Shown here piece after piece: positions 2,072 to 62,000 of a stretch of 64,000 nucleotides of DNA (its first letter is position 1; every line of letters starts with the position of its first letter). The position numbers and the translations under genes were made by a program. Under the pieces are notes generated by a model. That model ran no database searches. It saw only the letters and a list, made by a program, of their open reading frames with translations, and was not told where the DNA came from. The DNA lies in IMG/VR virus record IMGVR_UViG_3300046660_000239, positions 1 to 64,000 of that record; one strand, given 5' to 3'. The DNA comes from a virus.

Positions 2072-2096
2072 GGCGGGTCGCTGGTGACGACCCGCC
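2072..2096 (-). promoter_or_regulatory. leader stem-loop before dnaN
   Basis: Perfect 9-bp inverted repeat (arms 2072-2080 and 2088-2096) with a 7-base loop reading TCACCAG in the RNA, followed by TTCACCACG and AAGAGGAGAC before the GTG. No U-run follows, so it is not an ordinary terminator. One of a family of similar leader hairpins in this genome. Confidence 0.7.
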
Positions 2097-2103
2097 GATT
2101 GGC

Positions 2104-2727
2104 TTACTTGCCCCAGGGGCGACGACCAGCCGGCGCTGCGGTTGCTGCGGGCTTGGCAGCAGCAGCCGGGCGGTTATCATTGGCGGCGACCGGCGAACCT
2201 CGATCTTCGTTCAGCTTCTTGCCCTGCGTGCCGTCGCCGATGACGCCGAGTTCCGGAACTGGCACAGTAGCTCCGGCATCATCGAAGAAGAAGTTCTGGA
2301 TGTTGTTTTTGTCCTTGTAGAAGCCTCCTGCCGGGTTGGCGCCGCCGATCTCTATGCCTATTTCAGCAACGAACGACTTGAACAGCAGGTGGTCCGTGTC
2401 TGGGTCTCTGCTGAACTCAGCAGCATCGTTCCCGGTTGCTCGGACAAGCTTGTCGAACCTCGGCTTGCCGTAACTGTATGCCCCGTGCTTGAATTCATCT
2501 GGATGCGCCACGGTCCACGTTGCCCAGAACTTGCGTTTGGCGAAAGCTTCGGGCTCGATAACCTCGAACGTCAGTTCGACCTGCGTTCCCTTGCCGTCTT
2601 TTGTGGGGCCTGGCGTTCCCGATTCAACCTGCAGCGAGGCGTACATGTGCGGAAGAATGCCGCCTCCTCCGCTGACCTGCTTGTCTGTGTCCGTGTCGAC
2701 CTTGTAGTCAATATCTAGTTTGGCCAT
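2104..2727 (-). CDS. DUF669-like phage ssDNA-binding protein
   Basis: 207 residues, ATG 2727 after AAGGAGAC. The body (MAKLDIDYKVDTDTDKQ, LEVIEP-type strand TFEVIEPEAFAKRKFW, KPRFDKLVRA) matches the DUF669 family, which in many phages accompanies a RecA-like ATPase and acts as a single-stranded DNA-binding protein. The C-terminal 50 residues are low-complexity (alanine/proline) with an AANDN motif and end in RRPWGK, not the acidic tip of bacterial SSB. It lies directly downstream of the Sak4-like ATPase, the usual gene pair. Function is inferred from family and context. Confidence 0.75.
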   Translation of the reverse strand: MAKLDIDYKVDTDTDKQVSGGGGILPHMYASLQVESGTPGPTKDGKGTQVELTFEVIEPEAFAKRKFWATWTVAHPDEFKHGAYSYGKPRFDKLVRATGNDAAEFSRDPDTDHLLFKSFVAEIGIEIGGANPAGGFYKDKNNIQNFFFDDAGATVPVPELGVIGDGTQGKKLNEDRGSPVAANDNRPAAAAKPAATAAPAGRRPWGK

Positions 2728-2760
2728 GCTTAGTCTCCTTGTTGTGGTGGGTGGTGGTGG

Positions 2761-3552
2761 TTAGGCTGCGACGCCAGTCGGCGCCGGGAAGTATTTTGCG
2801 AGCTCGTTGTAGCCGTTGCCCTTGCTGTATTTGATGGCGTCAGGCATGGAATAGCGATTCTTGGCGACGAAGCCGGCGCCCTCAGTGAGATGAATCTGGC
2901 GCTCCTTACCGCCTTCCGCGTGGGTGACTTCCTTCTTGATGCCCACTTCTTTGCTCTTGAGTGAGACGCGATAGTTGATGAAGGCGACGATGTCCGACCG
3001 CTCGCGGACCAGCGCGGCGGCACGCTTCCGAAGTTTTACCTGATAGCGGTCGTATGGGTCTGTGACTGGGCTATCGAAGCGCTTGATTTCCGGATGGGCG
3101 AGCAGAACGACGGCAATGCCCCGCTCCGTTAGGGCGGCGCACGCATCCATGAATTCGCCCCACTCGACATCGCCCTGAACATCGCCCTGGCCAAACGCGG
3201 CGGGTGAGCCCTTGTCGTTGCTGCCGATGGAATCCGCGCCGATGCGGGCGCAAGTTTCGGCATTGATGATCGGCTCGAGGCCATCAAGGCTGTCGAAAAT
3301 GACAGTCTTGAACTGGTGGTCTTCGGAAAGCAGCTCGCCAACCACATTCTTGAGATCTTCCCAGGTCTCGATGTCGCCAGGGGTTGGAAGTTCAACATCA
3401 CTTGGCGGGCGCTCGCCTGCCGTGCTGATGTAGACGGCATCAGGGAATTCCGCCGCAAGCGACGACTTGCCGACGCCGTCAACGCCGTAAAGCAGCGTGA
3501 TCGGCGGGGTCAGTCTGGTTGTGCTCTTTAACGAGCTTAACGAAATTGCCAA
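2761..3552 (-). CDS. RecA-like AAA ATPase, Sak4-type recombinase
   Basis: 263 residues starting at TTG 3552, chosen because AGGAAGGAG lies nine bases upstream and because residues upstream of it are low-complexity read-through. The P-loop is GVDGVGKSSL near residue 25, a hydrophobic strand with acidic end is TVIFDSLDGLE, and VVLLAHPE follows, as in the RecA-fold nucleotide-binding phage proteins (AAA_24/Sak4). These promote single-strand annealing together with a phage SSB. The DUF669 protein follows 33 bases downstream. A 46-residue membrane-peptide gene ends just before it, inside the same operon. Confidence 0.85.
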   Translation of the reverse strand: MAISLSSLKSTTRLTPPITLLYGVDGVGKSSLAAEFPDAVYISTAGERPPSDVELPTPGDIETWEDLKNVVGELLSEDHQFKTVIFDSLDGLEPIINAETCARIGADSIGSNDKGSPAAFGQGDVQGDVEWGEFMDACAALTERGIAVVLLAHPEIKRFDSPVTDPYDRYQVKLRKRAAALVRERSDIVAFINYRVSLKSKEVGIKKEVTHAEGGKERQIHLTEGAGFVAKNRYSMPDAIKYSKGNGYNELAKYFPAPTGVAA

Positions 3553-3566
3553 GTGTCTTCTCCTTC

Positions 3567-3707
3567 CTAGAGGTAAAGCGCCGCGATGATGATGACCACG
3601 GCAAGGGCCACCGGCCACCAGCTAAACGGATCCGGCCAACCATCTGGCGGCCCGCCGTGCAGGGTCGTGTGCGCTGGCGCGTCGGCGTACGGGGTGTTAT
3701 TCGCCAT
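3567..3707 (-). CDS. small single-span membrane protein
   Basis: 46 residues (MANNTPYADAPAHTT...). A proline/tryptophan-rich N-terminus (GWPDPFSWWP) leads into one C-terminal hydrophobic segment VALAVVIIIAALYL. ATG 3707 overlaps the stop of the upstream membrane protein by 11 bases, and the stop lies 14 bases before the TTG of the ATPase gene, with that gene's ribosome site starting inside the stop. The tight packing supports that it is real. No family recognised. Confidence 0.7.
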   Translation of the reverse strand: MANNTPYADAPAHTTLHGGPPDGWPDPFSWWPVALAVVIIIAALYL

Positions 3708-4002
3708 GGGTATCGATCGCCTTGATGAACTTGTCGGTTCCCCAGACGCAGCCGCTGAGAACCATGATTGCGATCGCGGCGACGAACAAGAACGGCGCGA
3801 AGATGAAGGATGCGACGGCCACGCCGGCGACGATGGCTGCGATTGCGGCGCGGCGGAGGGTTGGCGCCTTGAACTGGGTTGGCGTTGTGGGCGCGATGGT
3901 GGCGTTGATGGGCACGTAGTCGAGCGGCGTGCCTGTGATTGGCGGGAGGATGGTTGGTGTGTCGGCGGTTGGGCTGGGCGCTAGCCAGGGGGATTTGGTC
4001 AT
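3697..4002 (-). CDS. membrane protein of unknown function
   Basis: 101 residues with a proline/threonine-rich soluble N-terminal half and two hydrophobic segments (AAIAAIVAGVAVASFIFAPF and FVAAIAIMVLSGCVW), so probably a two-span or hairpin membrane protein. ATGA overlap with the upstream gene. Its 3' end overlaps another small membrane protein gene; the two may act together. Not recognised. Confidence 0.65.
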   Translation of the reverse strand: MTKSPWLAPSPTADTPTILPPITGTPLDYVPINATIAPTTPTQFKAPTLRRAAIAAIVAGVAVASFIFAPFLFVAAIAIMVLSGCVWGTDKFIKAIDTHGE

Positions 4003-4391
4003 GCTGCGGCTCGTTGGTCGGTGAGGATATTCGACGACAAGCGCTTCATCGTTTCGACGAGCGGGTTGACGAACTCGACTTCGACGCCGCTCTTGCGACC
4101 AAGCTCGATCACGTCGGAAAGAGCCGTCATGAACTCTTTCATGCGCGCCTCCTCGGCTGTCGGCAGGGCGGCGATCAGCGCAACGGCGTTGTCGATTAGC
4201 TCGGCCGTAGTTTTGCCTTTGACGTAGTGAAACTCATCCGCCCAGTTTGAGTTGGGCTTCGCCCATCGAAGCACGATATTTGAGGCTGCATTTGCCTCGA
4301 TACGGTACTCGGCGCCAGGCATCCGCTTGCCCTTGGCAAGCATAGCTGCAGGCAAGTCATCGATTCTCTTTTGGATTTCCTTGGTATCCAT
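3999..4391 (-). CDS. phage protein, paralog of the 16709-17113 gene
   Basis: 130 residues from ATG 4391, placed after AAGAGGAGACGTT; upstream in-frame codons are leader sequence. The last 55 residues (MKEFMTALSDVIELGR, FVNPLVETMKRLS, NILTDQRAAA) are nearly the same as those of the protein at 16709-17113, and the N-terminal MDTKEIQKRIDDLPAAMLAKG also aligns. So the genome carries two divergent copies 12 kb apart, each preceded by a hairpin with the same CCACCAA loop. Function unknown; the C-terminal half looks helical and is the conserved part. Confidence 0.75.
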   Translation of the reverse strand: MDTKEIQKRIDDLPAAMLAKGKRMPGAEYRIEANAASNIVLRWAKPNSNWADEFHYVKGKTTAELIDNAVALIAALPTAEEARMKEFMTALSDVIELGRKSGVEVEFVNPLVETMKRLSSNILTDQRAAA

Positions 4392-4405
4392 AACGTCTCC
4401 TCTTA

Positions 4406-4430
4406 GCCGTGCGGTTGGTGGCCGCACGGC
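4406..4430 (-). promoter_or_regulatory. leader stem-loop with CCACCAA loop
   Basis: Perfect 9-bp stem (4406-4414 with 4422-4430), RNA loop CCACCAA (4415-4421), then TAAGAGGAGAC and the ATG at 4391. The stem sequence is unrelated to the one at 17141-17165, but the loop is identical. Confidence 0.75.
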
Positions 4431-4455
4431 GTTGCTGTGGTGGCAGTTGGTGGTG

Positions 4456-4989: not shown

Positions 4990-5282
4990 CACGCTGCTCC
5001 TTCCGTTGGTGTGTTCCGCTTCAGCGGACGACGCTTGGTGAAGTCGACCGGGATGACGTTGTCATCCACGGGCTGCTTGGTGGCGGTCGGCGGCGTAGGC
5101 ACGTCGTCATCATCGATGAGGTCAAGCTCCCATTCGTGGAACTGCAGAACCTCCAACGAAGGCGACACCCGGACGAGGACGATGCTTCCCATGAAGCCGA
5201 TGACGATGCCGAAGACGTTGGTGTTCATCTTGTGCTCGACGACGTCGCCGATGCCGATGCAGTCACAATCGGTGCAGCTCAT
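4989..5282 (-). CDS. hypothetical protein
   Basis: 97 residues, ATG 5282 (ATGA overlap). The N-terminus has CTDCDC, then a compact strand-rich segment (GDVVEHKMNTNVFGIVIGFMGSI), like small KOW/SH3-type barrels that begin with G-D-V-V. The C-terminus is acidic then basic (DLIDDDDVP, FTKRRPLKR). The barrel idea is only an impression from the strand pattern. Confidence 0.65.
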   Translation of the reverse strand: MSCTDCDCIGIGDVVEHKMNTNVFGIVIGFMGSIVLVRVSPSLEVLQFHEWELDLIDDDDVPTPPTATKQPVDDNVIPVDFTKRRPLKRNTPTEGAA

Positions 5283-5626
5283 GCCGCCACCTGCAATTCA
5301 AGGCCGGCGACCAGAAGTTCGCGCGCCGACGGCTCGACCTCCGCAACGTCAAGAGTGGGGATGCGTTTGACAGACACGGGAACGACGCCACTCCAAGTGG
5401 AGCAGCCACCGTTGTGCGGCGTCATCTGGGTGGTAACGTTGGGATTATTGTCGTTTGCCGCCGAGACGGATGGTTTTGGAAAGTGGCCTGGGCCGAACTC
5501 TCTCCGTAGGCGCTGGTAAACGGTAATCGGCTTGAGGCGATATCTGGTCGCAATGCTGGCGTTGCTTTCGCCGCTCAGTCTGCGCGCATGCATATCGGCC
5601 AGCATCTCGCTGGTAATGATTGTCAT
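5279..5626 (-). CDS. helix-turn-helix protein, GcrA/resolvase-like HTH
   Basis: 115 residues from ATG 5626, seven bases after AGAGGAGAC. The first 40 residues form a helix-turn-helix (MLADMHARRLSGESNASIA, TRYRLKPITVYQRLRREFG). The middle holds an AANDN motif; the rest is not recognised. It is the first gene of the leftward early operon, immediately downstream of the operator/promoter at 5694-5709, so it may be an early regulator. Confidence 0.75.
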   Translation of the reverse strand: MTIITSEMLADMHARRLSGESNASIATRYRLKPITVYQRLRREFGPGHFPKPSVSAANDNNPNVTTQMTPHNGGCSTWSGVVPVSVKRIPTLDVAEVEPSARELLVAGLELQVAA

Positions 5627-5693
5627 ATTGTCTCCTCTGTGGTGATGTCGGCAAAACGGTGAACTTGCCAACCGACTGTCATAGTGTTATCGA

Positions 5694-5709
5694 TTTACAA
5701 ATTTGTCAA
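5694..5709 (-). promoter_or_regulatory. operator/promoter site 1 (TTTACAAATTTGTCAA)
   Basis: On the minus strand TTGACA (5709-5704) is followed after 17 bases by CACTAT, a plausible weak -10, driving the gene at 5626 and the operon to 708. The symmetric core ACAAATTTGT recurs at nine places in the window. The repressor gene at 5725 begins only 16 bases away on the other strand. Confidence 0.75.
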
Positions 5710-5724
5710 AGTGTAGCGGTGAAT

Positions 5725-6333
5725 ATGGCCCCCTCTAAATCAAGATTCGCGCAGATGCTTGCGAACGAACAGACCAAGCAGGGCCTGACCGATCGCGAAG
5801 TGGTTGCGAAATACGACTGGCTGCAGCAAACGTTCAGCCGGTGGAAGAGTGGTAGCTTGCCGCGGCAGCACATGTTCGCGTCCATCGGCCAGTTTCTTGG
5901 CGTCAGCACGGAAGCGGTTGCCGAGCTTGTCGAAGAGGCGTCCGCAAGCACTGGCAACACGAAGCTTGCCGCAGCTTACGGCGGCGTCAAGATTTACGGC
6001 AAGGTGACCGACCGCAAAGCCGGCAAGTATGTGTTCGAAGCGTTCAACCAAGGACGTAAGCGCATCCCCGAAGGCCGGTATGCTATCCTCGTGGATACGA
6101 AGGTCATGGAGCCGGCGCTGTTGGTCGGTACGAAGGCATGGCTGGATCCAGCCGTCTGGCCGAAGCCTGGCAACGAGGTGATGGTCCACGCCAAGGGCGG
6201 CGTTGCCTGGCTGGGGCGGCTGGTGTCGTTGGCTGACGCGCTGGCAACCATTGAGGCTGGCGGAAAGGAGATGACAATTCGAGACGTTGAGGCTGTGCAT
6301 GTCATTGTCCTTTCTGAGCGCGTAGCTAAATAA
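5725..6333 (+). CDS. repressor-like protein with degenerate S24/LexA fold
   Basis: 202 residues from ATG 5725. N-terminal DNA-binding helices (LTDREVVAKYDWLQQTFSRWKSG) are followed by a C-terminal segment laid out like the LexA/CI dimerisation-peptidase fold (YAILVDTKVMEPALLVGTKAWLDP, KPGNEVMVHAKGGVAW). Where LexA-type proteins have the catalytic serine (D-S-M-x-P) this one has KVMEP, so self-cleavage is probably lost. It is flanked by copies of the ACAAATTTGT operator at 5694 and 6338, which makes it the best candidate to bind that site. Start codon spacing leaves little room for a leader, so an upstream start remains possible. Confidence 0.8.
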   Translation: MAPSKSRFAQMLANEQTKQGLTDREVVAKYDWLQQTFSRWKSGSLPRQHMFASIGQFLGVSTEAVAELVEEASASTGNTKLAAAYGGVKIYGKVTDRKAGKYVFEAFNQGRKRIPEGRYAILVDTKVMEPALLVGTKAWLDPAVWPKPGNEVMVHAKGGVAWLGRLVSLADALATIEAGGKEMTIRDVEAVHVIVLSERVAK

Positions 6334-6337
6334 TAGC

Positions 6338-6367
6338 TTGACAAATTTGTAGCATGTTTGGTAGACA
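6338..6367 (+). promoter_or_regulatory. operator/promoter site 2, rightward
   Basis: TTGACAAATTTGTAGC (6338-6353): -35 TTGACA, 18 bases, then TAGACA (6362-6367) as a weak -10. It lies just after the stop of the first repressor and points into a stretch without an obvious gene but with a strong hairpin and a terminator. Confidence 0.65.
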
Positions 6368-6374
6368 TGCGTCG

Positions 6375-6570
6375 TCACTGTGGTGGTGATATCGAAATCC
6401 GGGATTAACGGCGCGGCCTAGCCAAGTCTCCTCTCCCGAGATAGTAGGAACTGCTTCTGCGAGCCTTTACGGGTGGTGCCGGCCTTCGGGTTGGCTCGCG
6501 GAAGCAGCTTTAGTCATCCAGCAAGAACGACAAAAAAACGCCTGCAGGCCTTAGCCAGCGGCGTTATTTT
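6375..6570 (+). ncRNA. possible small structured RNA between the repressors
   Basis: Downstream of operator/promoter site 2 there is no convincing rightward gene. Instead a 15-bp stem (6451-6465 with 6493-6507, one G-U pair) encloses a 27-base loop with its own short pairing, and a terminator follows at 6537-6570. Promoter, structure and terminator together suggest a short RNA of roughly 170-200 nt. Boundaries and function are inferred; a regulatory or immunity RNA is one option. Confidence 0.4.
6537..6570. terminator. bidirectional terminator
   Basis: Arms AACGCC (6537-6542) and GGCGTT (6560-6565), with an A-run on the left (6532-6538) and TATTTTTTAT on the right, so it can stop transcripts from either side. 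Confidence 0.7.
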
Positions 6571-6603
6571 TTATGTCGGCTTGTCGTTGAATTCGTTTCT
6601 CAT
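6571..6603 (-). CDS. micro-ORF, 10 residues
   Basis: ATG 6603 five bases after a strong AGGAGGGG site; encodes MRNEFNDKPT and stops directly at the terminator stem. Real translation is plausible because of the ribosome site, but length alone gives little support. It may be a leader peptide or regulatory micro-ORF. Confidence 0.35.
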   Translation of the reverse strand: MRNEFNDKPT

Positions 6604-7732: not shown

Positions 7733-7788
7733 TCTTATACCTCTCCTCACAGCCGCACCATGGCTGGGCACCACTTGAGGAGACCGAC

Positions 7789-7986
7789 ATGCTCGGCAGA
7801 AGATTTATCGACCCGGAAGATCACGTACCGCTGGCTATCGCGGCTGGCAGCGCGGAGCCTTTCCGCAAGCCCGACCACAAAGCAAAACGCCACCCGAAGC
7901 CGCGCAACGTAGATTGCCGCGGCCGCTTTGCGTTGCGTCACCAGAAGCCCGGCCGCGTGCTGGCTGAGATGGGCGGTGATGAATGA
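7789..7986 (+). CDS. hypothetical small basic protein
   Basis: 65 residues, ATG 7789 six bases after GAGGAGACC. Rich in H, K, R and P (KPDHKAKRHPKPRNVDCRG). First gene of the rightward operon under the palindromic operator; ends in an ATGA overlap with the next gene. Not recognised. Confidence 0.65.
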   Translation: MLGRRFIDPEDHVPLAIAAGSAEPFRKPDHKAKRHPKPRNVDCRGRFALRHQKPGRVLAEMGGDE

Positions 7987-8342: not shown

Positions 8343-8557
8343 CCAACCACATCGACACCAGCAAGCTCGACGAGCCAATCCTCGACGATAGAGACCCCGT
8401 TTACGCCGACTTTTTGTATGTCGCCGACGGGAGGGTCATTCTAAGCGACTGGCACGCCATCACGGTTCGCGAATTCAAGATCCGGATAAACGCCAAGGAG
8501 ATTCGCCGCTGCGATATCTACGGACGGTCGGATCAGTTTTTCGGGAGGGCTGCATGA
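8339..8557 (+). CDS. hypothetical protein
   Basis: 72 residues in an ATGA chain. Aspartate-rich N-terminus (LDEPILDDRDPVYADF) and a central strand (LYVADGRVILSDWHAITVREF). Nothing recognised; packing supports that it is translated. Confidence 0.6.
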   Translation: MTNHIDTSKLDEPILDDRDPVYADFLYVADGRVILSDWHAITVREFKIRINAKEIRRCDIYGRSDQFFGRAA

Positions 8558-8691
8558 TGAACCGCGCCGACCTCGACGACGACCGCATCACGCTCCGCAG
8601 CTTTCTTTATGACGCGCTCGCCGCCATATCTGCGGGTGGCTTCGTCGCCGCCGTTTCCATCTGGCTGCCGTACATCGTGCAGCATCAGTAA
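8554..8691 (+). CDS. small membrane protein
   Basis: 45 residues, ATGA overlap with the preceding gene. A charged start (MMNRADLDDDRITLRS) precedes one hydrophobic segment (ALAAISAGGFVAAVSIWLPYIV). Probably an inner-membrane peptide; function unknown. The 150 bases after it hold a 10-bp inverted repeat and no convincing gene. Confidence 0.6.
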   Translation: MMNRADLDDDRITLRSFLYDALAAISAGGFVAAVSIWLPYIVQHQ

Positions 8692-8705
8692 TTGCCCAAG
8701 GGCAA

Positions 8706-8759
8706 TAGAGCGCGGTCGGTGATGATGGCTGCAACTATTCGTTTTCGTGCCGCGCTCTA
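8706..8759. repeat. 10-bp inverted repeat in an intergenic gap
   Basis: TAGAGCGCGG (8706-8715) pairs with CCGCGCTCTA (8750-8759) around a 34-base loop, preceded by the small palindrome TTGCCCAAGGGCAA (8692-8705). No T-run follows, so it is not a clear terminator. Confidence 0.5.
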
Positions 8760-8842
8760 GCACATTCGCCCAAGCCGATTACGAATCCCGCATTCTCTCC
8801 GCTCTCGCCTAACCACCAACCACCACCACAAGAGGAGACACT

Positions 8843-9052
8843 ATGACCAACGATATCAGACCATATAACGGCACAGGCACCGAAGTCGTCGACAGCCTGA
8901 CGCCAGCCACGGATATTCCCGCAGGCAGACTGGCCGCCGTTGCGGACTGGCATAGCCAGTCGAGCAAGCGAGCACGCCGTCACGCAACGATCGCCAGCAA
9001 GCTGCGCGAAGTCGCAAGGATGATCGCCAACGACAATCGTGTGCAGCCATGA
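8843..9052 (+). CDS. hypothetical protein with C-terminal ANDN motif
   Basis: 69 residues, ATG 8843 after ACAAGAGGAGACACT, the same leader signature seen before many genes here, with CCACCAACCACCACC just upstream. The second half is basic and helical (SSKRARRHATIASKLREVAR) and the protein ends MIANDNRVQP. Function unknown. Confidence 0.65.
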   Translation: MTNDIRPYNGTGTEVVDSLTPATDIPAGRLAAVADWHSQSSKRARRHATIASKLREVARMIANDNRVQP

Positions 9053-12099: not shown

Positions 12100-12344
12100 G
12101 TACAAAACTTGTACACGCCAATCCAGAGCACTGCCACAATCCCTATGGCATATACACTTTTATACTTTAAACAATTCCCTTGGTAAGGGTGAGGTCGGTG
12201 GTTCAATCCCACTCGGCAGCACCAGTTTTCCTAAGTAATTACAACAAGATAGAACAAGCACACTTTGAGCGAGGCGGCTTTTGTGTGCAGAACAAAGCAT
12301 GAAATTGTACGTGAAATCAGCACGTAACGTACAAAATCTGTACA
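12100..12344. other. attP region with integrase arm-type sites
   Basis: Two near-identical 16-base elements, GTACAAAACTTGTACA (12100-12115) and GTACAAAATCTGTACA (12329-12344), flank the tRNA-derived core at 62 and 104 bases. A further partial copy (TTGTACGTG) lies at 12305. The layout of core plus flanking repeated arm sites is that of an intact attP. Confidence 0.75.
12177..12224 (+). other. attP core: 3' part of tRNA-Thr(GGT)
   Basis: Begins in the anticodon stem (CCC TTGGTAA GGG, anticodon GGT), continues through variable loop, T-arm (GGTGG TTCAATC CCACT) and the 3' acceptor with CCA at 12222-12224. The 5' half of the tRNA is absent (the flank is AT-rich), so this is not a working tRNA gene but the identity segment by which phages restore the tRNA after integration. 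Phage genes on both sides show an unintegrated site. Confidence 0.85.
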
Positions 12345-13685: not shown

Positions 13686-13720
13686 AGTCTCCTCTTCGCG
13701 GTGATGGTGAAGAGGAGACT
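13686..13720 (-). promoter_or_regulatory. hairpin that sequesters a ribosome-binding site
   Basis: Perfect 12-bp inverted repeat AGTCTCCTCTTC (13686-13697) / GAAGAGGAGACT (13709-13720), loop 13698-13708. In the leftward mRNA the second arm is the AAGAGGAGAC ribosome site itself, so it is fully paired ahead of TTG 13682. Confidence 0.75.
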
Positions 13721-16533: not shown

Positions 16534-16712
16534 CACGCGGCCTCCTCTTTGTGTTCGATGAACCGGCAGTGCTTGGCGCCGCCGTTGTCGATCTCTCGCT
16601 GCGGGTAGCCGTCGCGAAGAAGCGTTTGCTCAAGTGTTTCGCCGGGCAACGGCGCGTAAACTTTGGGAAAGCCGTACTTCCAGCCGCTTGGCGGGTCGTA
16701 AAGTGTGGTCAT
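16533..16712 (-). CDS. hypothetical protein
   Basis: 59 residues (MTTLYDPPSGWKYGFPKVY...), ATG 16712 in an ATGA overlap, stop in a TGATG overlap with the HD gene. The GWKYGFPKVYAPLPGETL and LLRDGYPQREID segments resemble small phage proteins of unknown role that accompany nucleotide enzymes. Both junctions argue it is translated. Confidence 0.65.
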   Translation of the reverse strand: MTTLYDPPSGWKYGFPKVYAPLPGETLEQTLLRDGYPQREIDNGGAKHCRFIEHKEEAA

Positions 16713-17113
16713 GCCGCCACCCGCTGGTCAGTGATGATGTTTTCGGAAAGGCGGCGCATCGTATCGACTAGCGGATTGACGAAATCCACTTCGATGCCGT
16801 TCTGTCGACCGAGCTCGATGACGTCGGAAAGCGCCGTCATGAACTCCTTCATGCGGGTTTCATCCGGCGACGGAAGCGCGGCTATGAACGCGTCCATCTT
16901 GCGCAGGATCTCGGCAGGCGTTTTGCCCTTCACCCACTCGTACTTGCTGCCGTATAGAGCGCTCTTGTCTTTCCAAGACATATAGCCCTGCAGCTCCTCG
17001 TTGCCGCGGATATCGAATTCCGCTTTCGGTTCGCGCAGTCCTTTAGCCGACATGGACGCAGGCATGGCGTTAATGCGCTTCTGTACGTCTTCTATGGTGG
17101 TTGGCTTGGTCAT
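16709..17113 (-). CDS. phage protein, paralog of the 3999-4391 gene
   Basis: 134 residues, ATG 17113 after AGAGGAGACTGAA. C-terminal part (MKEFMTALSDVIELGR, FVNPLVDTMRRLSENIITD) almost matches the copy at 3999-4391; the middle differs more, as if one domain is under stronger constraint. The leader hairpin has the same loop as its paralog. Function unknown. Confidence 0.75.
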   Translation of the reverse strand: MTKPTTIEDVQKRINAMPASMSAKGLREPKAEFDIRGNEELQGYMSWKDKSALYGSKYEWVKGKTPAEILRKMDAFIAALPSPDETRMKEFMTALSDVIELGRQNGIEVDFVNPLVDTMRRLSENIITDQRVAA

Positions 17114-17140
17114 TTCAGTCTCCTCTGTGGTGGTAGTGGT

Positions 17141-17165
17141 TGCCGCCGATTGGTGGTCGGCGGCA
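17141..17165 (-). promoter_or_regulatory. leader stem-loop with CCACCAA loop
   Basis: Perfect 9-bp stem (17141-17149 with 17157-17165), RNA loop CCACCAA (17150-17156), then CCACCACAGAGGAGAC before ATG 17113. Confidence 0.75.
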
Positions 17166-21970: not shown

Positions 21971-22042
21971 TCACGCCTCCAGCAGTTTGGAGATGTGGCC
22001 AGCGGTTCCCGCTGTGGTCGGCGCATGGAAATATCTGCTCAT
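21971..22042 (-). CDS. 23-residue leader ORF of the protease operon
   Basis: ATG 22042 after AGAGGAGATCAAAG, encoding MSRYFHAPTTAGTAGHISK..., stop overlapping the protease start region. The strong ribosome site suggests translation and coupling to the protease gene. Confidence 0.5.
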   Translation of the reverse strand: MSRYFHAPTTAGTAGHISKLLEA

Positions 22043-22091
22043 CTTTGATCTCCTCTGCTGTGGTGGTGGTTTACCGACTGGAGCCGGCGGA

Positions 22092-22108
22092 ACTAGTTGG
22101 TGGCTAGT
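22092..22108 (-). promoter_or_regulatory. leader stem-loop with CCACCAA loop
   Basis: Short stem ACTAG/CTAGT around TTGGTGG (22097-22103), read CCACCAA in the leftward RNA, then CCACCACCACAGCAGAGGAGATC. Lies between operator site 4 and the first ORF. Confidence 0.6.
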
Positions 22109-24748: not shown

Positions 24749-24749
24749 G

Positions 24750-25064
24750 TTACGCGGCAATCCACTGGAATTTATCGTTCGGCTCGGCGTAGACGTCGTA
24801 GTCTGTTGCGGCCGGGACGAGGAATCGCTTGCCGCTTGTTGCGTCTGGAGCCGGGCCTACCGATACCCAGGAGTCAGCTGCGGCGCGAATGCGGAACATC
24901 GGCTGGCCGGAGCCGTCGCTGCCGTTCGGTGCGAAATTGGTGGACGTAACGCCGGTCGACGGCGCTTCGGTCCACGCAATCTTGCCGAGGATCGCCTGCG
25001 ACTTGTCGCGCGCAAAAAGGGAGCCTGCGAAACCGCAAACGACGTGAAGGCCTGCAAATGCCAT
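24750..25064 (-). CDS. hypothetical small late protein
   Basis: 104 residues, ATG 25064 after AAGGAGACCACT. Contains strand-rich RIRAAADSWVSVGPAPDATS and FLVPAATDYDVYAEPNDKF, a pattern common in phage structural or decoration proteins. It immediately precedes the large lectin/FAD-like protein, so the two may be partners. A short leader hairpin (25077-25091) precedes it. Confidence 0.65.
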   Translation of the reverse strand: MAFAGLHVVCGFAGSLFARDKSQAILGKIAWTEAPSTGVTSTNFAPNGSDGSGQPMFRIRAAADSWVSVGPAPDATSGKRFLVPAATDYDVYAEPNDKFQWIAA

Positions 25065-37489: not shown

Positions 37490-37938
37490 TAGGAGATCCG
37501 CGGGGTGCGCGTCGGGATGCCGTCGAACTGAATGTCGAGCTCGGCGGTGACCTTCGTGCCGCGCTCAGCAGCGTTGTTGATCGATGCCAGGTAGGCCGCT
37601 CCGGATTCGTACTCCGTATCACCGATCGCCGCATTGACGTGGTGAATACGGATGTTCTTCGGCTGGCCGGCGCCCCACCAATCAAGCAGAAGCTCGTGCG
37701 ACTGCGAAGCCCATACGCCAGAGGCGGAAACGGTCACTTCAGACGACTGAACGGCGCGCTCAACCTGTGCAGGCAAAGATTCGTCGTCGCACGATGGAAC
37801 TTCGGAGGTCTGCATGTTGTGCTGGCGGTTAACGCCTCTGGAAGTCAGGCCACAGATCTTGCTGTAAACGCCGCTACCTGCGGTCACCTCGACCTCAAGC
37901 ACCATCTGATGAAAATTAGCTGTACTCGCATACGCCAT
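37489..37938 (-). CDS. major tail tube protein
   Basis: 149 residues. Strand-rich body with a conserved-looking middle (ERAVQSSEVTVSASGVWASQ, ELLLDWWGAGQPKNIRIHHV) and a C-terminal VTAELDIQFDGI strand, as in phage tail tube proteins. Position between the tail completion genes and chaperones agrees. Confidence 0.8.
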   Translation of the reverse strand: MAYASTANFHQMVLEVEVTAGSGVYSKICGLTSRGVNRQHNMQTSEVPSCDDESLPAQVERAVQSSEVTVSASGVWASQSHELLLDWWGAGQPKNIRIHHVNAAIGDTEYESGAAYLASINNAAERGTKVTAELDIQFDGIPTRTPRIS

Positions 37939-40824: not shown

Positions 40825-40946
40825 GCAAGGTGTCCAATCTCGCGTCCAGTTGTTGTATTCGGCAGGCGCCTGGACAGACGCTTTTCGGGAGCTACCCTAG
40901 CCGAACAACACAACATAGGGTTTTACGCCTATATTATCCAGTTATT

Positions 40947-48389: not shown

Positions 48390-48434
48390 AAACGAAAGCG
48401 CCAGGGAGCCTTATTACAAGGCTCAACCTGGCGC
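48390..48434 (-). terminator. strong terminator upstream of the HNH gene
   Basis: Stem of GCGCCAGG+GAGCCTT (48398-48412) with AAGGCTC+CCTGGCGC (48418-48424, 48427-48434), bulge AA, loop ATTAC; on the minus strand TTTCGTTTTC follows. Ends leftward transcription coming from 48876-49823. Confidence 0.85.
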
Positions 48435-48875
48435 AGGATTACCGCGTCGCGAGAGGAGGCGCGCTGCGGTAATTGGTATGCCCAACGGAACGCCGCGTCC
48501 AAGCCGCAAGCATCTAGCCGTGAGTGGGCAATAAGTGAGTATGGCCAACAGTCCGCTACGTGGGGCGTTAGCGCTGTTGGTCCATCCCCAGCGAACCCGC
48601 ATAACGGGTCGCCAATTAAGTTGCATCCAGCCACGGCGCGTCCGCAGTGCCCTCCTGTTGCTTCAGGATGTTAGGCATGTAGCCAACAGCGCCACGGTAC
48701 AATGCCCGGTGCGATGCCAGCCACAGAGGACTAGGATGCTCATCAGAAAAGTTACCCAAGGCTCAGAGACGGCACTAAATGCCGCATGGCGATGGGTCCG
48801 GGACTTCGCCGGAAGAGTTTGGGCTCATTTGCGAACCCTTCGCTCTATTCCCCATGAGAACGGCATTTTCTCCGA
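48435..48875. other. gene-poor stretch rich in inverted repeats
   Basis: 440 bases after the stop of the 49823-48876 gene. Contains ACCGC/GCGGT (48441/48466), CCAACAG (48545) with CTGTTGG (48574) and another CCAACAG (48683), and hairpin ACCCG-CATAA-CGGGT (48595-48609). Short reading frames exist in several directions but none has a ribosome site. Could be a structured 3' UTR or RNA. The minus strand is more likely transcribed, since the terminator at 48398 serves it. Confidence 0.4.
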
Positions 48876-49823: not shown

Positions 49824-49832
49824 TTCCGTCTC

Positions 49833-49860
49833 CTGCAATCGTGGTGGTTGGTGATTGCAG
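49833..49860 (-). promoter_or_regulatory. leader hairpin next to a ribosome site
   Basis: CTGCAATC (49833-49840) / GATTGCAG (49853-49860) around an RNA loop ACCAACCACCAC. The 3' arm continues directly into AGGAGAC, so part of the ribosome site is paired. Confidence 0.6.
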
Positions 49861-49884
49861 GATATATGATGCTCACGGCGGAAA

Positions 49885-49904: not shown

Positions 49905-50135
49905 CTACACCGAAGTGCGGCAAACCTTCTTCGTCTGCTGCTGGACGGTGCGCAGATAGACGCGCAGACCGTTCTTGAGCGGCGCAGAGACGTTGTTGCG
50001 TTCGGCGTCGTCCACGGCCTGCCATGCGTAGGCTTCGATGAAGCGCGACAGGGCGCAGTCAGACGAAACTACGGCTTGGGCGTTGGCGGTGGTTGCTGTG
50101 GCTATGATGGCTGCTGCGATAAGGATGCGGGTCAT
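49905..50135 (-). CDS. small secreted protein
   Basis: 76 residues, ATG 50135 after AGAGGAGACCAAC. A signal peptide (MTRILIAAAIIATATTANAQ) with an A-N-A-Q/A cleavage region, then a mature part with two cysteines (SSDCALSRFI, KKVCRTSV) that could form a disulfide. Probably periplasmic; role unknown. Confidence 0.7.
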   Translation of the reverse strand: MTRILIAAAIIATATTANAQAVVSSDCALSRFIEAYAWQAVDDAERNNVSAPLKNGLRVYLRTVQQQTKKVCRTSV

Positions 50136-50156
50136 GTTGGTCTCCTCTGTGTGGTG

Positions 50157-57297: not shown

Positions 57298-57674
57298 CAA
57301 AACGGCGCCTCCTTAAGCGCAGCCCTTAATCCCCGCGCGCACCCTTCCCACGCCGCCTTGACCAGCATTCGCTGCGCGAGCTCATCAAAATGAGCCAGGT
57401 CCGTCACCCCGCCGTTTTCAGCGATCCATTCCCCAACCGCGTCAACGCCAGCGTCGAGCGCAACCAACTCGAATTCGTCGAGCCGCCTGATTTTCTTGTA
57501 ATCGTCGATCGCCACGATGCACCTCCTGCACAAGTATTGCGGGTCGCCCTTCTGGTGGTTTGCACCCAGCGCCACGGCACGCATGCCGCAGCAGAAACAG
57601 GCGGTCGGATCGCCGGCTGCGTCGACAGTCGGCGTGAAGGGCGTAGCGGACTTCATTCCTGGGATCGCGGCCAT
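57297..57674 (-). CDS. zinc-ribbon-containing phage protein
   Basis: 125 residues. CFCCGMRAVALGANHQKGDP...YLCRRCIVAID provides two CxxC pairs, then a helical region (RLDEFELVALDAGVDAVGEW). Common in phage operons next to methyltransferases, role unknown. Confidence 0.7.
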   Translation of the reverse strand: MAAIPGMKSATPFTPTVDAAGDPTACFCCGMRAVALGANHQKGDPQYLCRRCIVAIDDYKKIRRLDEFELVALDAGVDAVGEWIAENGGVTDLAHFDELAQRMLVKAAWEGCARGLRAALKEAPF

Positions 57675-58978
57675 TATGCTGCACCTGCTTGGGCGAAGAG
57701 GTCACCGACTGGTGAATTGTCGTTGGCTGGCTTGGCGATGGGTTGTGCTGGCTCGGCAACTGGTTCGCTATCAGTGGAGCCTATCGCCCACGCAACGCGC
57801 GCCATGGCGATAGGCATGTACTCGTCCTCACGCTCGCAGCCGACGAACTGAAAGCCCTCAAGAACCGCGGCTTTTCCTGTGCTGCCGCTGCCCATGAATG
57901 GATCCAAGATGACGCCCCCAGGCGGCGTGATGAGACGGCACAGCCATTGCATGAGGGTGGTTGGCTTGACCGTGGGATGGATGTTGGCGCGTGGCTCCGG
58001 CTTGTAGCCCTCGTCGCGTCTGGTAATGTGCTGGCCGCTGGTGTTCGACACCATGCCGCCCTCCTTCTTCGGGAGGTGGCCCAACCCCGCATCACGATCA
58101 GCACGGCTGGCCTTGGCGCAGTAGAAGAAGCGAGCGGCGGAACCGCTGTCGCCGTCGACGGAAGGCATGGGCGCTGCGTCAGCACCGTGATAGCCCATCA
58201 GGCCGTATTCGCCAGCCTTCCGGCTCCCCGACTTGGTGTCAGGAAACGCCGCCAGCACCTCTTCGCTGCCGTCGTGGAGGATGTTGGCTGGCCAGCGGCC
58301 TTCCGGAGAATCCGGCTTGGGGTCGCGCGCATAATTTTTGCCGCTCATAGATCCGTTGTCGGATTCCTTGCTGCCTGACTTGGACCACCCGCTCTCGAAT
58401 GCTCCCTCAACCCGGCAACCATCCACATTGATCGCGCCGACTCCCCACTCATCAAGGTTTGCGGCCACCGTGCCCGTCAGCGGCTTGCGCGCTAGGCAGA
58501 TAGGTTCCCACGCAGGCTTAAGCGCGGTGCCCCAGCCTTCCCAGTAGCCGTGCTGGTTGTGCGACTTCGGAAACCCCGAGCCATAGACCCAGCCGAGTTG
58601 ATCGCGGATCTCAAAGCCGGCATCCTCGATCGCCACTGCCATCCGGTGATAAGTGCGCGTGCCGCTGAACGCGACAACATGGCCGCCAGGCTTCAGGACG
58701 CGCAGCACCTCGGCCCAGAATTCATCGCTGAACGCGACCTCGCCGTTATCCCAAGTCTTACCCATAAAGCCGCGCCCCGTGCGCCCATAAGGGTTCACGG
58801 GGTTCTCTGTCTTTTCATTGCGCGGAGAGTTGGCGAAACGCTTCTGGATTGAAACCAGCGCATATGGTGGATCCGTGACCACGCTGTCGATGGAATTGTC
58901 GGCCAAACCGCGCAGAACGTCTCGGCAGTCCGCTTGATGCAGCACGACTCTTCCGTCGTGCATCGTGGTGCTCGTCAT
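57674..58978 (-). CDS. DNA N6-adenine (or N4-cytosine) methyltransferase
   Basis: 434 residues from ATG 58978 after AAGAGGAGAGAAT. DSVVTDPPYALVSIQKRF (DPPY) near 40, LKPGGHVVAFSGTRTYHRM, and VILDPFMGSGSTGKAAVLEG (FxGxG) with IHPTVKP near the end, the order of beta-type phage methylases. Long insert with GVGAINVDGCRVEG. Contains PANDN near the C-terminus, which ends in AGAA. Confidence 0.9.
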   Translation of the reverse strand: MTSTTMHDGRVVLHQADCRDVLRGLADNSIDSVVTDPPYALVSIQKRFANSPRNEKTENPVNPYGRTGRGFMGKTWDNGEVAFSDEFWAEVLRVLKPGGHVVAFSGTRTYHRMAVAIEDAGFEIRDQLGWVYGSGFPKSHNQHGYWEGWGTALKPAWEPICLARKPLTGTVAANLDEWGVGAINVDGCRVEGAFESGWSKSGSKESDNGSMSGKNYARDPKPDSPEGRWPANILHDGSEEVLAAFPDTKSGSRKAGEYGLMGYHGADAAPMPSVDGDSGSAARFFYCAKASRADRDAGLGHLPKKEGGMVSNTSGQHITRRDEGYKPEPRANIHPTVKPTTLMQWLCRLITPPGGVILDPFMGSGSTGKAAVLEGFQFVGCEREDEYMPIAMARVAWAIGSTDSEPVAEPAQPIAKPANDNSPVGDLFAQAGAA

Positions 58979-58997
58979 ATTCTCTCCTCTTGTGGTG

Positions 58998-59018
58998 TCC
59001 CGCGCGTTGGTGGCGCGC
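58998..59018 (-). promoter_or_regulatory. leader stem-loop with CCACCAA loop
   Basis: GCGCG/CGCGC stem around RNA loop CCACCAA (59005-59011), then GGGACACCACAAGAGGAGAG before the methyltransferase ATG. Confidence 0.7.
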
Positions 59019-59093
59019 CGGTGATTATTAGACTGTACATAAAGCGCTGTAATGTGCAGTTTGGTGGACAGTGGTCCATAAATGATACGTTGG

Positions 59094-59120
59094 CGCGTCA
59101 TATGGGCCATTTATGACGCG
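59094..59120. promoter_or_regulatory. 9-bp inverted repeat upstream of the methyltransferase
   Basis: Perfect CGCGTCATA (59094-59102) / TATGACGCG (59112-59120). A related CATAAATGATACG lies at 59077. Situated where the promoter of the 58978 gene should be, so a regulatory site is likely. Confidence 0.5.
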
Positions 59121-59126
59121 TGAAGG

Positions 59127-59696: not shown

Positions 59697-59884
59697 CACT
59701 TCCACCCTCGACGCAAAATAGTGCCGAAAAAAGCAACGGCGTACATAACCGGCCAGAAGATCGGCCAAATCACCACGCCGAGAAAGATCGATGTGAAGGT
59801 TAGGCCATCATCCAACGCCTCGTTGATATGGTGAAATGCCGTCATCGCGCCGGCGATGTAGAAGTAAAGAGCTAACCACGCCAT
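59696..59884 (-). CDS. membrane protein
   Basis: 62 residues from ATG 59884. Two TM helices (WLALYFYIAGAMTAFHHI and FLGVVIWPIFWPVMYAVAFF). Start overlaps the upstream stop. Unknown. Confidence 0.6.
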   Translation of the reverse strand: MAWLALYFYIAGAMTAFHHINEALDDGLTFTSIFLGVVIWPIFWPVMYAVAFFGTILRRGWK

Positions 59885-60192
59885 CAAATCACCTCCGGCA
59901 AGTTGATGGGATAAGCCCAATGTGTCGGCACATAGCCAGCATCATAAAGCGCATCGTTCTGGACGCTTTGCCAGCGCAAAGGACCGCCGCGGGATGGGCG
60001 GAAGTCTTCGTCGATATATGCCAGTTCCAAGAACTGCCGGTGGGTGCGATAGCCACTGCTACCGGTCACCATCAGCAATGTCTTCTGCGGCGGCTGGATA
60101 TCAGAAATATCAAACCAAGCGACGGCCGGTCGATTGGCTGTTCGTGCGAGTTCTGCTTCCACCTTGGTTTCGAAATCATCATCCAAAATCAT
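59884..60192 (-). CDS. hypothetical protein
   Basis: 102 residues, ATG 60192 (ATGA). ISDIQPPQKTLLMVTGSSGY, RQFLELAYIDEDFRPS. Unknown; part of the compact 60956-59127 operon. Confidence 0.6.
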   Translation of the reverse strand: MILDDDFETKVEAELARTANRPAVAWFDISDIQPPQKTLLMVTGSSGYRTHRQFLELAYIDEDFRPSRGGPLRWQSVQNDALYDAGYVPTHWAYPINLPEVI

Positions 60193-60956
60193 GACGCCAC
60201 CTTGCTCTCGACAATACGGAACCCCGGCACCTGCCGCACGCCGCCCCTGACGGCCTCATCAGCATTCCGCTGTGCCACGGCAAGCACCTCTTCCTTGGCG
60301 CGCGCCCATGTCCACTCCATAGCCGCGTCTTCGTCGACGAGTTCGGCTTTCCAGATTGTACGCAACCCCGTGCCCACAGTCGCCGCCTTGTCCGCCCGCT
60401 TCGCGGTCTTCTCCAGCCGCTTAGCATCGGCCAGCAATTCCTCAGCGCTTTCACGCGCCGCGAGGTTTCCGCTACTGGCACGCACTGCCTCATCGGCGGC
60501 ACGGCGGGCATCTTCTGCTTCCTGCGCTATGCGGGCGGCATCCGCGGCCTTCTCTTGCGCAATCCGCGTGCGCCATGGCGTCAACAACGCCTGGCACGCC
60601 TCCTTGCCGAGAACGACCTTGCCCTTGCCGGCTTTTGTGTTGCCGATCAGCGGGTGGAACTTGGCCTGGATGGCTGTTATCTGGTCGTCGAGTGGCTTCT
60701 TTTCATCGACGCGCAGCTCTTCCGCGCGCTTGCCACACTCGTGAATGCGGTCATGCAGTTCGGTGATGACGTTGGCCATGGCTTCGTCGGTGATGGGCTC
60801 GCCGTCGCAGAAATCCTTGGCGGTGTCGTATAGGTCGTCGAGTTCCTGGCGGATGGCTTCGAAGGCCGAATTGTCGTTTGCGGGTGGTTGATTATGCCCG
60901 ATGCCAACTTCACGGATCGCCTGCGGGTTGAATTCGCTGTGCGCCTGATTCATCAT
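60189..60956 (-). CDS. coiled-coil protein of unknown function
   Basis: 255 residues. PANDN near 28, then a long helical region (QELDDLYDTAKDFCDGEPIT, DAARIAQEAEDARRAADEAV, AKRLEKTAKRADKAATVGTG), ending VRQVPGFRIVESKVAS. Similar coiled-coil proteins next to RecT-like or nuclease genes in phages are of uncertain function. Confidence 0.65.
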   Translation of the reverse strand: MMNQAHSEFNPQAIREVGIGHNQPPANDNSAFEAIRQELDDLYDTAKDFCDGEPITDEAMANVITELHDRIHECGKRAEELRVDEKKPLDDQITAIQAKFHPLIGNTKAGKGKVVLGKEACQALLTPWRTRIAQEKAADAARIAQEAEDARRAADEAVRASSGNLAARESAEELLADAKRLEKTAKRADKAATVGTGLRTIWKAELVDEDAAMEWTWARAKEEVLAVAQRNADEAVRGGVRQVPGFRIVESKVAS

Positions 60957-61441
60957 GCTGACCTCGCGAATTCGCCGTGGATATCATTTGCCGCTGCGAC
61001 GTAAAGGGCGTGAGCCTCTTCAGGAGTTGAGCGGTTTCCGAGATGGATCTGCTTGCCGTTTACAGAGATCATCGCCTTGAATCTGTTGTGGTCTTTGTAG
61101 ACGCCCTTAAACCCGGTGCTGTTGCGACCGGTCTTGTTAGCCTGATTCTGAGAATTCGTTGCCTCACGAAGATTCGCCCATGCGTTGTTCGCCTTGTCCA
61201 AATCGCGATGGTCGACCGCACCAACGGGCCATTCGCCAGTCATGTAGAGCCATGCAAGGCGATGGGCTTTGCGGCCTCTTTTGCCGTCGACGCTGAAGCG
61301 GATATAGCCGCTACCGTTGTCAGCCCCAGCCACATCGCCGACCTTGACGCCGTGCCCCCCTACCAGCCACGTGAACACGCCAGTTGCCGGGTCGTAGTTA
61401 AGTAATTCCTTAAGCCGCTGTTGCGTTAGCTCGCTCATCAT
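60953..61441 (-). CDS. HNH-AP2 homing endonuclease
   Basis: 162 residues. LLNYDPATGVFTWLVGGHGV opening, AHRLAWLYMTGEWPVGAVDH-RDLDKANN core (H..H..N), NRFKAMISVNGKQIHLGNR AP2 part. Same family as 4456-4989. ATG 61441 after AGAGGAGACTG. Confidence 0.9.
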   Translation of the reverse strand: MMSELTQQRLKELLNYDPATGVFTWLVGGHGVKVGDVAGADNGSGYIRFSVDGKRGRKAHRLAWLYMTGEWPVGAVDHRDLDKANNAWANLREATNSQNQANKTGRNSTGFKGVYKDHNRFKAMISVNGKQIHLGNRSTPEEAHALYVAAANDIHGEFARSA

Positions 61442-61467
61442 CAGTCTCCTCTTGTGGTGTGGTGGTT

Positions 61468-61482
61468 GCGCTGGTGGGGCGC
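61468..61482 (-). promoter_or_regulatory. leader stem-loop before the homing gene
   Basis: GCGC/GCGC with RNA loop CCCACCA (61472-61478), then ACCACCACACCACAAGAGGAGAC. Shortest member of the stem-loop set. Confidence 0.45.
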
Positions 61483-61485
61483 TAA

Positions 61486-61959
61486 TTATGCGGCGAGTGC
61501 GTTGGATAGCGCGTCACGCGTCGTTTCGAAATCAGTGTGCAGAATGGCAAGGCCGCCCGCCTTCTCCCATACCTTCGTGTTGCGCTCGAAATCGTCGATC
61601 AGGATGTCGCCGGCCGCATGCATAAACAACGGCTTGTTGCTGCCACCCATCACGGGAAGGACATGAATGTCGGAGCCAAGATGGTTGCGCACCCACTGCC
61701 GCTTCTGCTTTGCGGAGTTGGCGTAATTGGTGCGAGGGCATGCGGTAAGGATGATCGGCTGCTGGCCTCTGATTGTTTCGAAGAAATCAAGAGCGCCAGC
61801 GCATGGGGGCATGTCGAGGAAGTAGGACGGATGAGAGTTGATGGTTGCCCACATATCATCATCCAGCATGCTCTTATGGCTGATGCCAAAAAGAGCCGGG
61901 AAATGAGCGTCGAAGTCAGCCATGACTCCATCAAGGTCAAGATAGATTCTTCTGCGCAT
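61486..61959 (-). CDS. 5'(3')-deoxyribonucleotidase (HAD, NT5C-like)
   Basis: 157 residues. YLDLDGVMADFDAHFPALF with the D-x-D start of HAD enzymes, TACPRTNYANSAKQKRQWV (motif II/III) and GDILIDDFERNTKVWEKAGG (final acidic motif). Removes phosphate from deoxynucleotides. ATG 61959 after AGAGGAGATTGC. Confidence 0.9.
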   Translation of the reverse strand: MRRRIYLDLDGVMADFDAHFPALFGISHKSMLDDDMWATINSHPSYFLDMPPCAGALDFFETIRGQQPIILTACPRTNYANSAKQKRQWVRNHLGSDIHVLPVMGGSNKPLFMHAAGDILIDDFERNTKVWEKAGGLAILHTDFETTRDALSNALAA

Positions 61960-61983
61960 GCAATCTCCTCTACGTGGTGCATT

Positions 61984-62000
61984 CGCGCTTGGTAGGCGCG
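61984..62000 (-). promoter_or_regulatory. leader stem-loop with CTACCAA loop
   Basis: CGCGC/GCGCG stem around CTACCAA (61989-61995), then GAATGCACCACGTAGAGGAGATT. Variant of the CCACCAA family. Confidence 0.65.

Follow-up and report, generated by a model that had tools for sequence, protein, structure and literature searches.

The DNA analysed here (the window) comprises positions 1 to 64,000 of the virus record IMGVR_UViG_3300046660_000239, which has 67,154 bases and whose nearest named relative is Rhizobium phage RHph_TM3_3_14B (~80% identity in pieces). The phages in question are temperate viruses of soil bacteria. Behind a repressor-like gene, whose protein matched no Pfam or PHROGs family, the window holds a candidate gene for a small RNA with three loops; elsewhere, on both strands, the leaders of many genes carry a repeated tag that begins with a small hairpin (Table 1). 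The loops of the RNA include stretches complementary to the ribosome-binding sites of several mRNAs.

Leader hairpins are probably selected RNA structures

The original prediction, made from the letters of the window alone, had listed seven hairpins with a CCACCAA-type loop and unrelated stems. All seven are present, as RNA hairpins of the minus strand and with the loops foreseen: CCACCAA in four, and CTACCAA, CCCACCA and TCACCAG in the other three. The stems, described as perfect and up to 9 base pairs (bp) long, bear this out in three hairpins of 9 bp and three of 5 bp, the weakest being the one at 61468-61482, which has 4 bp (GCGC/GCGC). A ribosome site had been placed just after each hairpin, and GAGGAG indeed lies 2 to 35 nucleotides (nt) downstream in all seven, followed by a start codon. 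The hairpins were rejected as terminators because no T run lies behind them. At 22092-22108, the 854-residue gene at 22196-24760 was discarded as the gene led, since it lies upstream of the hairpin, with a 23-codon open reading frame (ORF) downstream instead. A CTACCAA hairpin at 6352-6370 was dropped as a further leader, since it and the -10 region of the small RNA's promoter overlap.

Two other minus-strand leaders fold over their own ribosome sites. At ~13686-13720, an 11-bp hairpin with a CACC-rich loop buries the Shine-Dalgarno sequence (GTCTCCTCTT with AAGAGGAGAC), and at ~49831-49862 the hairpin TCCTGCAATC[ACCAACCACCAC]GATTGCAGGA takes it in; the latter stem is identical in RHph_TM3_3_14B, with one change in the loop.

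For counting, a strict hairpin was defined as a stem of at least 6 bp around a loop of 5-8 nt containing YACCA, so that stems of 4 and 5 bp went uncounted, and a leader as ACCA upstream plus GAGGAG ahead of an ORF with 40 codons or more. Dinucleotide shuffles served as controls, near-identical leaders were counted once, and two leader rows that were antisense of the small RNA itself (L041, G020) were removed beforehand. Set A consists of 19 records whose RNA mostly has GUCUCCUC; set B consists of records with a diverged RNA, whose hosts, where named, are Brucellaceae. Strict hairpins occurred in four of the 12 leaders of the window (0.02 expected), in 56 of 200 distinct leaders of set A (0.37 expected) and in 27 of 97 of set B (0.15 expected), counts that exclude a chance origin. 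The antisense loop core RTGGT, used as a control, gave two hairpins in set A and none in set B. The prediction had been staked beforehand on enrichment upstream of genes in relatives, and direct scans of the relatives' leaders found it.

CCACCAA was the commonest loop among all 6-bp hairpins before start sites in the helicase-fetched loci, the window and RHph_TM3_3_14B (27 hairpins, 13 stems). Orthologs of the DNA polymerase III beta (beta-clamp) gene lend support to the claim of a selected RNA structure, in which the loop is constant and the stems change yet stay paired. Among 77 distinct regions upstream of beta-clamp homologs we found 36 distinct hairpins with a 7-nt loop (17 regions had none), and 28 of the 36 had a loop with YACCA. 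Although these 28 have 13 different 5' arms, standard pairs were formed throughout at the six inner positions of the stem; when arms were swapped among them, 62% paired.

On the evidence of sequence, the hairpin is the 5' module of a longer tag, composed of the YACCA hairpin, a CACCAC linker and the ribosome site GAGGAGAC. Among the set-A records, 17 have an RNA with a UGUGGUG loop, and 155 of their 175 leaders contain the linker.

A probable small RNA gene lies behind the repressor-like gene

Our clue to the RNA was that the plus strand behind the repressor reads GTGGTGGTG and TCTCCTC, the complements of the linker and of the ribosome site. Homologs align over ~135 nt as a non-coding block behind a conserved promoter, and such a block follows the gene in all 15 repressor-homolog loci with sequence past it, some of them near-identical (a sixteenth, L172, stops within the promoter). 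Three stem-loops are predicted: SL1 with the loop UGUGGUG, SL2 with GUCUCCUC in its loop, and a terminator-like SL3 holding a hairpin with the loop GUGGUG. In diverged homologs SL3 is likewise terminator-like and has a T run, and it is this element together with the conserved promoter that marks the block as a probable small-RNA gene.

In an alignment of 29 homologs, 95.2% of the cells in the pairing table were paired and 18 of 19 pairs had two-sided changes. The covariation score was 0.58 vs 0.23 in shuffled alignments (none of 500 equalled it), and controls slid along the alignment gave 0.04-0.15. By our count, about 46 G-U cells stood against three A-C cells (loop-closing column 8/14 excluded), which identifies the plus strand as the RNA and rules out an RNA on the opposite strand. 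We built a covariance model of the RNA, R1, with the window among its source sequences; L012, which resembles L011, was excluded from the R1 homolog run. In Rfam release 15, the RNA region and one set-B homolog scored only far below the gathering score, and elsewhere in the window the only match was int-alpA.

A pattern search that left SL1 free returned 55 RNA stretches, of which the 47 distinct ones were read. SL1 was still UGUGGUG in nearly all matches, with CUGGUAA in L295 and L097; L297 was discarded as an unrelated chance match. In set B the RNA has diverged (~30-38 bits against R1, 17 bits in L066), with the SL1 loop GUGGUA and CUCCUCGUGU or a near form in SL2.

Some loci show variant arrangements. 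L162 (record G066) has two tandem copies, at 8505-8643 and 8660-8776, the second with GACUCCUC replacing GUCUCCUC; in the rearranged form seen in L060, L026/L207 and L255, GGUCUCCUC stands upstream of SL1 instead of behind it. The homolog in record G272 lies at 37671-37785, has the SL1 loop CUGGUAA and might act on other phages or on the host.

Within the window, palindromic ACAAATTTGT sites overlap TTGACA -35 boxes at 5697, 6338, 13731, 22132, 47821, 49888, 50729, 55721 and 62027, and are probably operators of the repressor. L013-type loci have a longer palindrome, CCTACAAATTTGTGTAGG, at the small-RNA promoter. That promoter and the promoters before tagged genes have a common core, TTGACAAATTTG, which suggests that the RNA is controlled jointly with the early promoters; the two would probably be released together, with the RNA then limiting early translation.

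The tag and the RNA occur together

We sampled 67 of 80 leader-pattern loci, one per contig; the 13 excluded were extra loci of contigs already in the sample, together with L041 and L096, whose contigs were known to carry the RNA. In these 67 contigs, chosen by the leader pattern alone, R1 found the RNA in 36 at E<=1e-4; of the 28 contigs with a length of 50 kb or more, 24 had it (exceptions: G004, G036, G045 and G053). Among genome loci found through the helicase, 17 of 21 had an R1 match at E<0.01, and three Methylobacterium loci had neither RNA nor tag. Ten of 199 Rhizobiaceae genomes carry the RNA. Four genomes (G068, G177, G190 and G251) have at least two leader matches within ~50 kb on one contig, and all four are among these ten; three of the ten are without any set-A leader match, and scattered leader matches, one to three per genome, occur in 39 RNA-negative ones.

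The tag appears to be foreign to the hosts. The pattern CACCAC-N0-5-GAGGAGAC had 30 matches, some overlapping, in four host genomes (24.4 Mb together), 29 of them inside one prophage region per genome, and the reversed pattern had none. In three of the four, R1 finds the small RNA in the same prophage region; in the fourth, G072, it misses the RNA at threshold, and the fetched locus L207 has a weak rearranged match (19.6 bits).

Tagged genes are mostly early. In RHph_TM3_3_14B the tagged genes serve regulation and replication (cro-like, MazG, beta clamp, sigma factor, DNA methylase), and the terminase, portal and protease genes are without the tag; the capsid and major tail genes have CACCAC leaders with a TTTGGAGAC site. 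L095, L142 and L153 belong to yet another group of phages, whose leader hairpin is of the GCGG[CCCACCAAT]CCGC type and which has the CACCAC/GAGGAGAC tag; R1 gave no full-length match there.

In some phage groups, leaders co-vary with the loops of the RNA

If RNA and tag pair, a change in one should be met in the other. For these counts, leaders lacking ACCA within 40 nt were excluded. GAGGAGAC occurs in 111 of 197 distinct leaders from all 19 set-A records vs 2 of 87 in set B, and ACACGAGGAG in none of the 197 vs 72 of the 87, the set-B RNA reading CUCCUCGUG(U). The mean duplex with the own vs the other set's RNA was 7.77 vs 6.28 for set A and 9.60 vs 6.75 for set B. A structure-blind 6-mer scan over the whole RNA, with the bases behind GAGGAG left unshuffled, singled out SL1 in both sets; the only other region it picked was SL3 in set A and the SL2 extension in set B, and in record G009, with 15 leaders, it returned just a single SL3 6-mer.

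G009 is of particular use, as its SL1 loop is CUGGUAA and its linker shifts from CACCA toward TACCA. Of its 15 leaders, 7 have T and 5 have C as the linker base directly before ACCA; in phages with UGUGGUG, T stands there in 4 and C in 144 of 173 leaders (nominal p=5e-7). The hairpin loops of G009 remain mostly CACCA (4 of 6). This pattern suggests that SL1 reads the linker and, we infer, that SL3 reads the hairpin loop. Predictions for three further records were written beforehand: in G274 the ribosome site was GAGGAGAC in 9 of 12 leaders and the linker mostly held (C 7, A 2, T 1, none 2), in G273 the linker held (C 12, none 2) and the ribosome site did not, and G272 turned out to have no GAGGAG leaders. 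In G041, the ribosome site matches the RNA in 5 of 10 leaders (GAGGAGAT).

Taken together, the sequences make the case for the RNA gene and its structure and for the tag; they also show the SL2 flanks co-varying with the leaders, with the exceptions given below, and SL1 doing so in one phage.

Features of the window

Table 1. Positions of the small-RNA locus and of tagged leaders in the window (hairpin loops in brackets where arms are given)
Feature	Positions	Strand	Description	Ribosome site	Gene
Repressor-like gene	5725..6333	+	directly upstream of small RNA; homolog annotated S24 peptidase/repressor in RHph_TM3_3_14B
Small-RNA promoter	6338..6367	+	-35 TTGACA, ACAAATTTGT operator-like core, -10 TAGACA; conserved in 10 aligned homologs
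Small RNA	6373..6508	+	loops UGUGGUG, GUCUCCUC and GUGGUG; R1 131 bits (window among R1 source sequences), covarying stems
Leader hairpin	2072..2096	-	GGCGGGTCG[TCACCAG]CGACCCGCC, perfect 9 bp	GAGGAG at 2053	DNA polymerase III beta, 988-2046
Leader hairpin	4406..4430	-	loop CCACCAA, perfect 9 bp	GAGGAG at 4397	3999-4391
Leader hairpin	17141..17165	-	loop CCACCAA, perfect 9 bp; CACCAC linker	GAGGAG at 17120	16709-17113
Leader hairpin	22092..22108	-	loop CCACCAA, 5 bp; CACCACCAC linker	GAGGAG at 22050	23-codon ORF, 21971-22042
Leader hairpin	59002..59018 (inside the earlier 58998-59018)	-	loop CCACCAA, 5 bp	GAGGAG at 58984	DNA methylase, 57674-58978
Leader hairpin	61468..61482	-	loop CCCACCA, 4 bp	GAGGAG at 61446	HNH endonuclease, 60953-61441
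Leader hairpin	61984..62000	-	loop CTACCAA, 5 bp	GAGGAG at 61965	deoxyribonucleotidase-like, 61486-61959
Leader hairpin	7750..7766	+	cagccG[CACCA]Tggctg; CACCAC linker	GAGGAG at 7777	7789-7986
Leader without hairpin	8812..8837	+	ACCACCAACCACCACCACAAGAGGAG		8843-9052
Leader	5632..5682	-	CACC-loop hairpin, CACCACA linker	GAGGAGAC	first gene divergent from repressor, 5279-5626
Leader	50142..50156	-	CACCACACAGAGGAG		49905-50135

Outside these features, an int-alpA RNA (Rfam) lies on the minus strand at 40843-40907, just above the gathering score. The attachment site is probably at 12178-12233, where all 56 bases agree with the lysogenization core sequence known from Rhizobium phage phiU. At 48422-48480, ~59 bases match, at 97% identity, a stretch without annotation in Rhizobium phages RHph_Y3_1 and RHph_Y3_56_1.

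A candidate multi-target antisense RNA and its alternatives

We consider it likely that this is an antisense RNA with many targets, encoded by the phage, and that it blocks translation from the tagged, mostly early, phage genes. The original prediction had left the partner of the loop as either a protein or a small RNA; a conserved phage RNA with complementary loops, together with the co-variation of leaders and RNA, strongly favours the latter. In the mechanism we propose, the phage would transcribe an RNA of ~135 nt from the gene right behind the repressor. The SL1 loop UGUGGUG would pair with the linker and the SL2 loop GUCUCCUC with the Shine-Dalgarno sequence, and the SL3 loop GUGGUG could pair with the hairpin loop. 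With the Shine-Dalgarno sequence occupied, translation of all tagged mRNAs would stop together, host mRNAs would be spared because they are without the tag, and the early genes would thus be shut off after induction. The linker may itself enhance translation, like the ACA motifs of GcvB targets in the cited passages of PMC3879156. That the RNA is produced, pairs in cells and represses, that SL3 contacts the hairpin loop, and that early genes are shut off after induction is what we infer from these patterns.

Several observations weigh against this proposal. The ribosome-site prediction for G273 failed (0 of 14 leaders with GAGGAGTC), G272 has an RNA homolog yet no GAGGAG leaders, and the SL2 flanks mismatch the leaders in L041, G020, G026 and G052. 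The SL1 loop of G041, UUGGUAG, is unmatched by its linkers, and the linker match in set B is weak (TACCAC in 11 of 87 leaders vs 3.2 expected). The contact between hairpin loop and SL3 amounts to only ~5 bp and shows no co-variation, because neither partner varies. P-values such as that for G009 overstate the case, since leaders of one clade are not independent. Finally, the invariance of the SL1 and SL2 loops in the A2 RNA homologs is partly built in, as most of these were gathered with a pattern demanding GTGGTG and TCTCCTC; the invariance of SL1 in the protein-fetched loci and in the SL1-free search is unaffected.

As to timing, the main alternative is a role in the lysogen and in superinfection: the RNA would mainly be an immunity RNA that silences leaky early mRNAs, whether these come from the prophage or from superinfecting relatives. 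P4 CI and P1 c4 are antisense immunity RNAs of this kind, made in the lysogen and silencing phage leader RNA. We hold this to be possible, if rather unlikely. The position of the gene directly behind the repressor fits it, the cro-like gene of RHph_TM3_3_14B is tagged, G272 carries the RNA without tags of its own, and the RNA could act on relatives because the tag is common to several phages. Against it speaks the small-RNA promoter, whose operator-like core is that of the early promoters, with the longer palindrome in the L013 type, and which would presumably be repressed in the lysogen.

An unlikely reading is that a phage or host RNA-binding protein recognizes the YACCA hairpin and that the small RNA acts separately, using only the linker and the Shine-Dalgarno sequence. 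A conserved loop on free stems is what protein operators look like, the hairpin bound by the MS2 coat protein being one such; the missing co-variation of hairpin loop and SL3 agrees with this, as does the fact that roughly three in four tagged leaders have no strict hairpin (present in 56/200 and 27/97). However, UGGUG in both SL1 and SL3 is the complement of the YACCA core (G-U at Y), SL3 keeps the same-core loop in the groups read, and no candidate RNA-binding protein turned up, although no search was aimed at one.

Quite improbable, in our judgement, is activation, in which the RNA would open leader structure in tagged mRNAs. In the window, two leaders have their Shine-Dalgarno sequence buried by a cis hairpin whose loop is CACC-rich, which would suit such a role; most of the tagged leaders inspected leave theirs exposed, and pairing of SL2, whose complement is the Shine-Dalgarno sequence, would block ribosomes. 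Least credible is that the tag does no more than enhance translation and stabilise the mRNA (through a CA-rich linker and a 5' hairpin), the complementary RNA being a by-product. In its favour, ACA enhancers lie just upstream of the Shine-Dalgarno sequence in GcvB targets (cited passages of PMC3879156), and CACCAC leaders are also found at the capsid and major tail genes of RHph_TM3_3_14B; but this leaves unexplained a conserved structured RNA with exact complements in its loops, the flank switch between sets A and B and the change in G009, and a GcvB-like combination of enhancer and silencing RNA would unite both.

The antisense reading gives the repeated hairpin, so far anonymous, a place in a circuit that can be tested, with a small RNA gene, a probable regulon and pairing rules. 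If it is true, these phages run a post-transcriptional regulon on their own mRNAs by means of a private tag. With less assurance, we lean towards a broader view of virus-wide RNA addressing, in which three loops of one RNA would read at once all parts of a tag that hosts do not use, so that a gene set is switched together at translation, and in which tag and RNA would co-evolve as a group-specific code that could decide which relatives a resident phage silences. Differences in the tag between phage groups would then predict which prophage RNA acts on which invader.

Comparison with known systems

Pairing through complementary loops is familiar from ColE1, where RNA I and RNA II kiss through 7-nt loops, one of them of the UUGGU type, in the control of plasmid copy number; ColE1 RNA I is a cis-antisense RNA, whereas the RNA proposed here would act in trans on many targets. 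Csr/Rsm sponge RNAs carry GGA in hairpin loops, and GGA is not in the loops of the small RNA (UGUGGUG, GUCUCCUC, GUGGUG). Searches of the open-licence literature of PubMed Central gave no earlier description of this RNA or of the tag.

In mode of action, the nearest system is the multi-target, trans-acting small RNA of the GcvB type, in which one RNA pairs with many mRNAs at or just upstream of the Shine-Dalgarno sequence (cited passages of PMC3879156). Unlike GcvB, the present RNA is phage-encoded, its predicted targets are the phage's own genes with a common tag, and it has three structured loops, GU-rich and CU-rich. The nearest phage RNAs are lambda OOP, P22 sar, lambda aQ, VpdS, PreS and 24B_1, which are phage-encoded and take part in lysis/lysogeny or in early control; each of sar, OOP and aQ is the antisense of a single gene, VpdS, PreS and 24B_1 have host or few phage targets, and none of the phage RNAs in section 4 of PMC12197685, on which this comparison draws, uses a repeated leader tag.

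The nearest tag is the SAS/ESAS of cluster K mycobacteriophages. SAS is likewise repeated just upstream of the start codons of many non-structural genes in one group of temperate phages, about half of its sites have an upstream inverted repeat, and an RNA or protein partner was considered possible (cited passages of PMC3203893). The 13-bp SAS, GGGATAGGAGCCC, had no match in the window at up to two mismatches (1.15 expected). ESAS, as portrayed for Adephagia in the cited part of PMC11373665, has 17-bp inverted repeats with a consensus sequence and putative promoters inside, whereas here the stems differ among leaders and the loop is constant; and here a complementary phage RNA is predicted as well. 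The circuit proposed here could also serve as a model for repeated start-site motifs elsewhere, such as SAS/ESAS, whose partner is left open in the cited parts of PMC3203893, PMC12699233 and PMC11373665.

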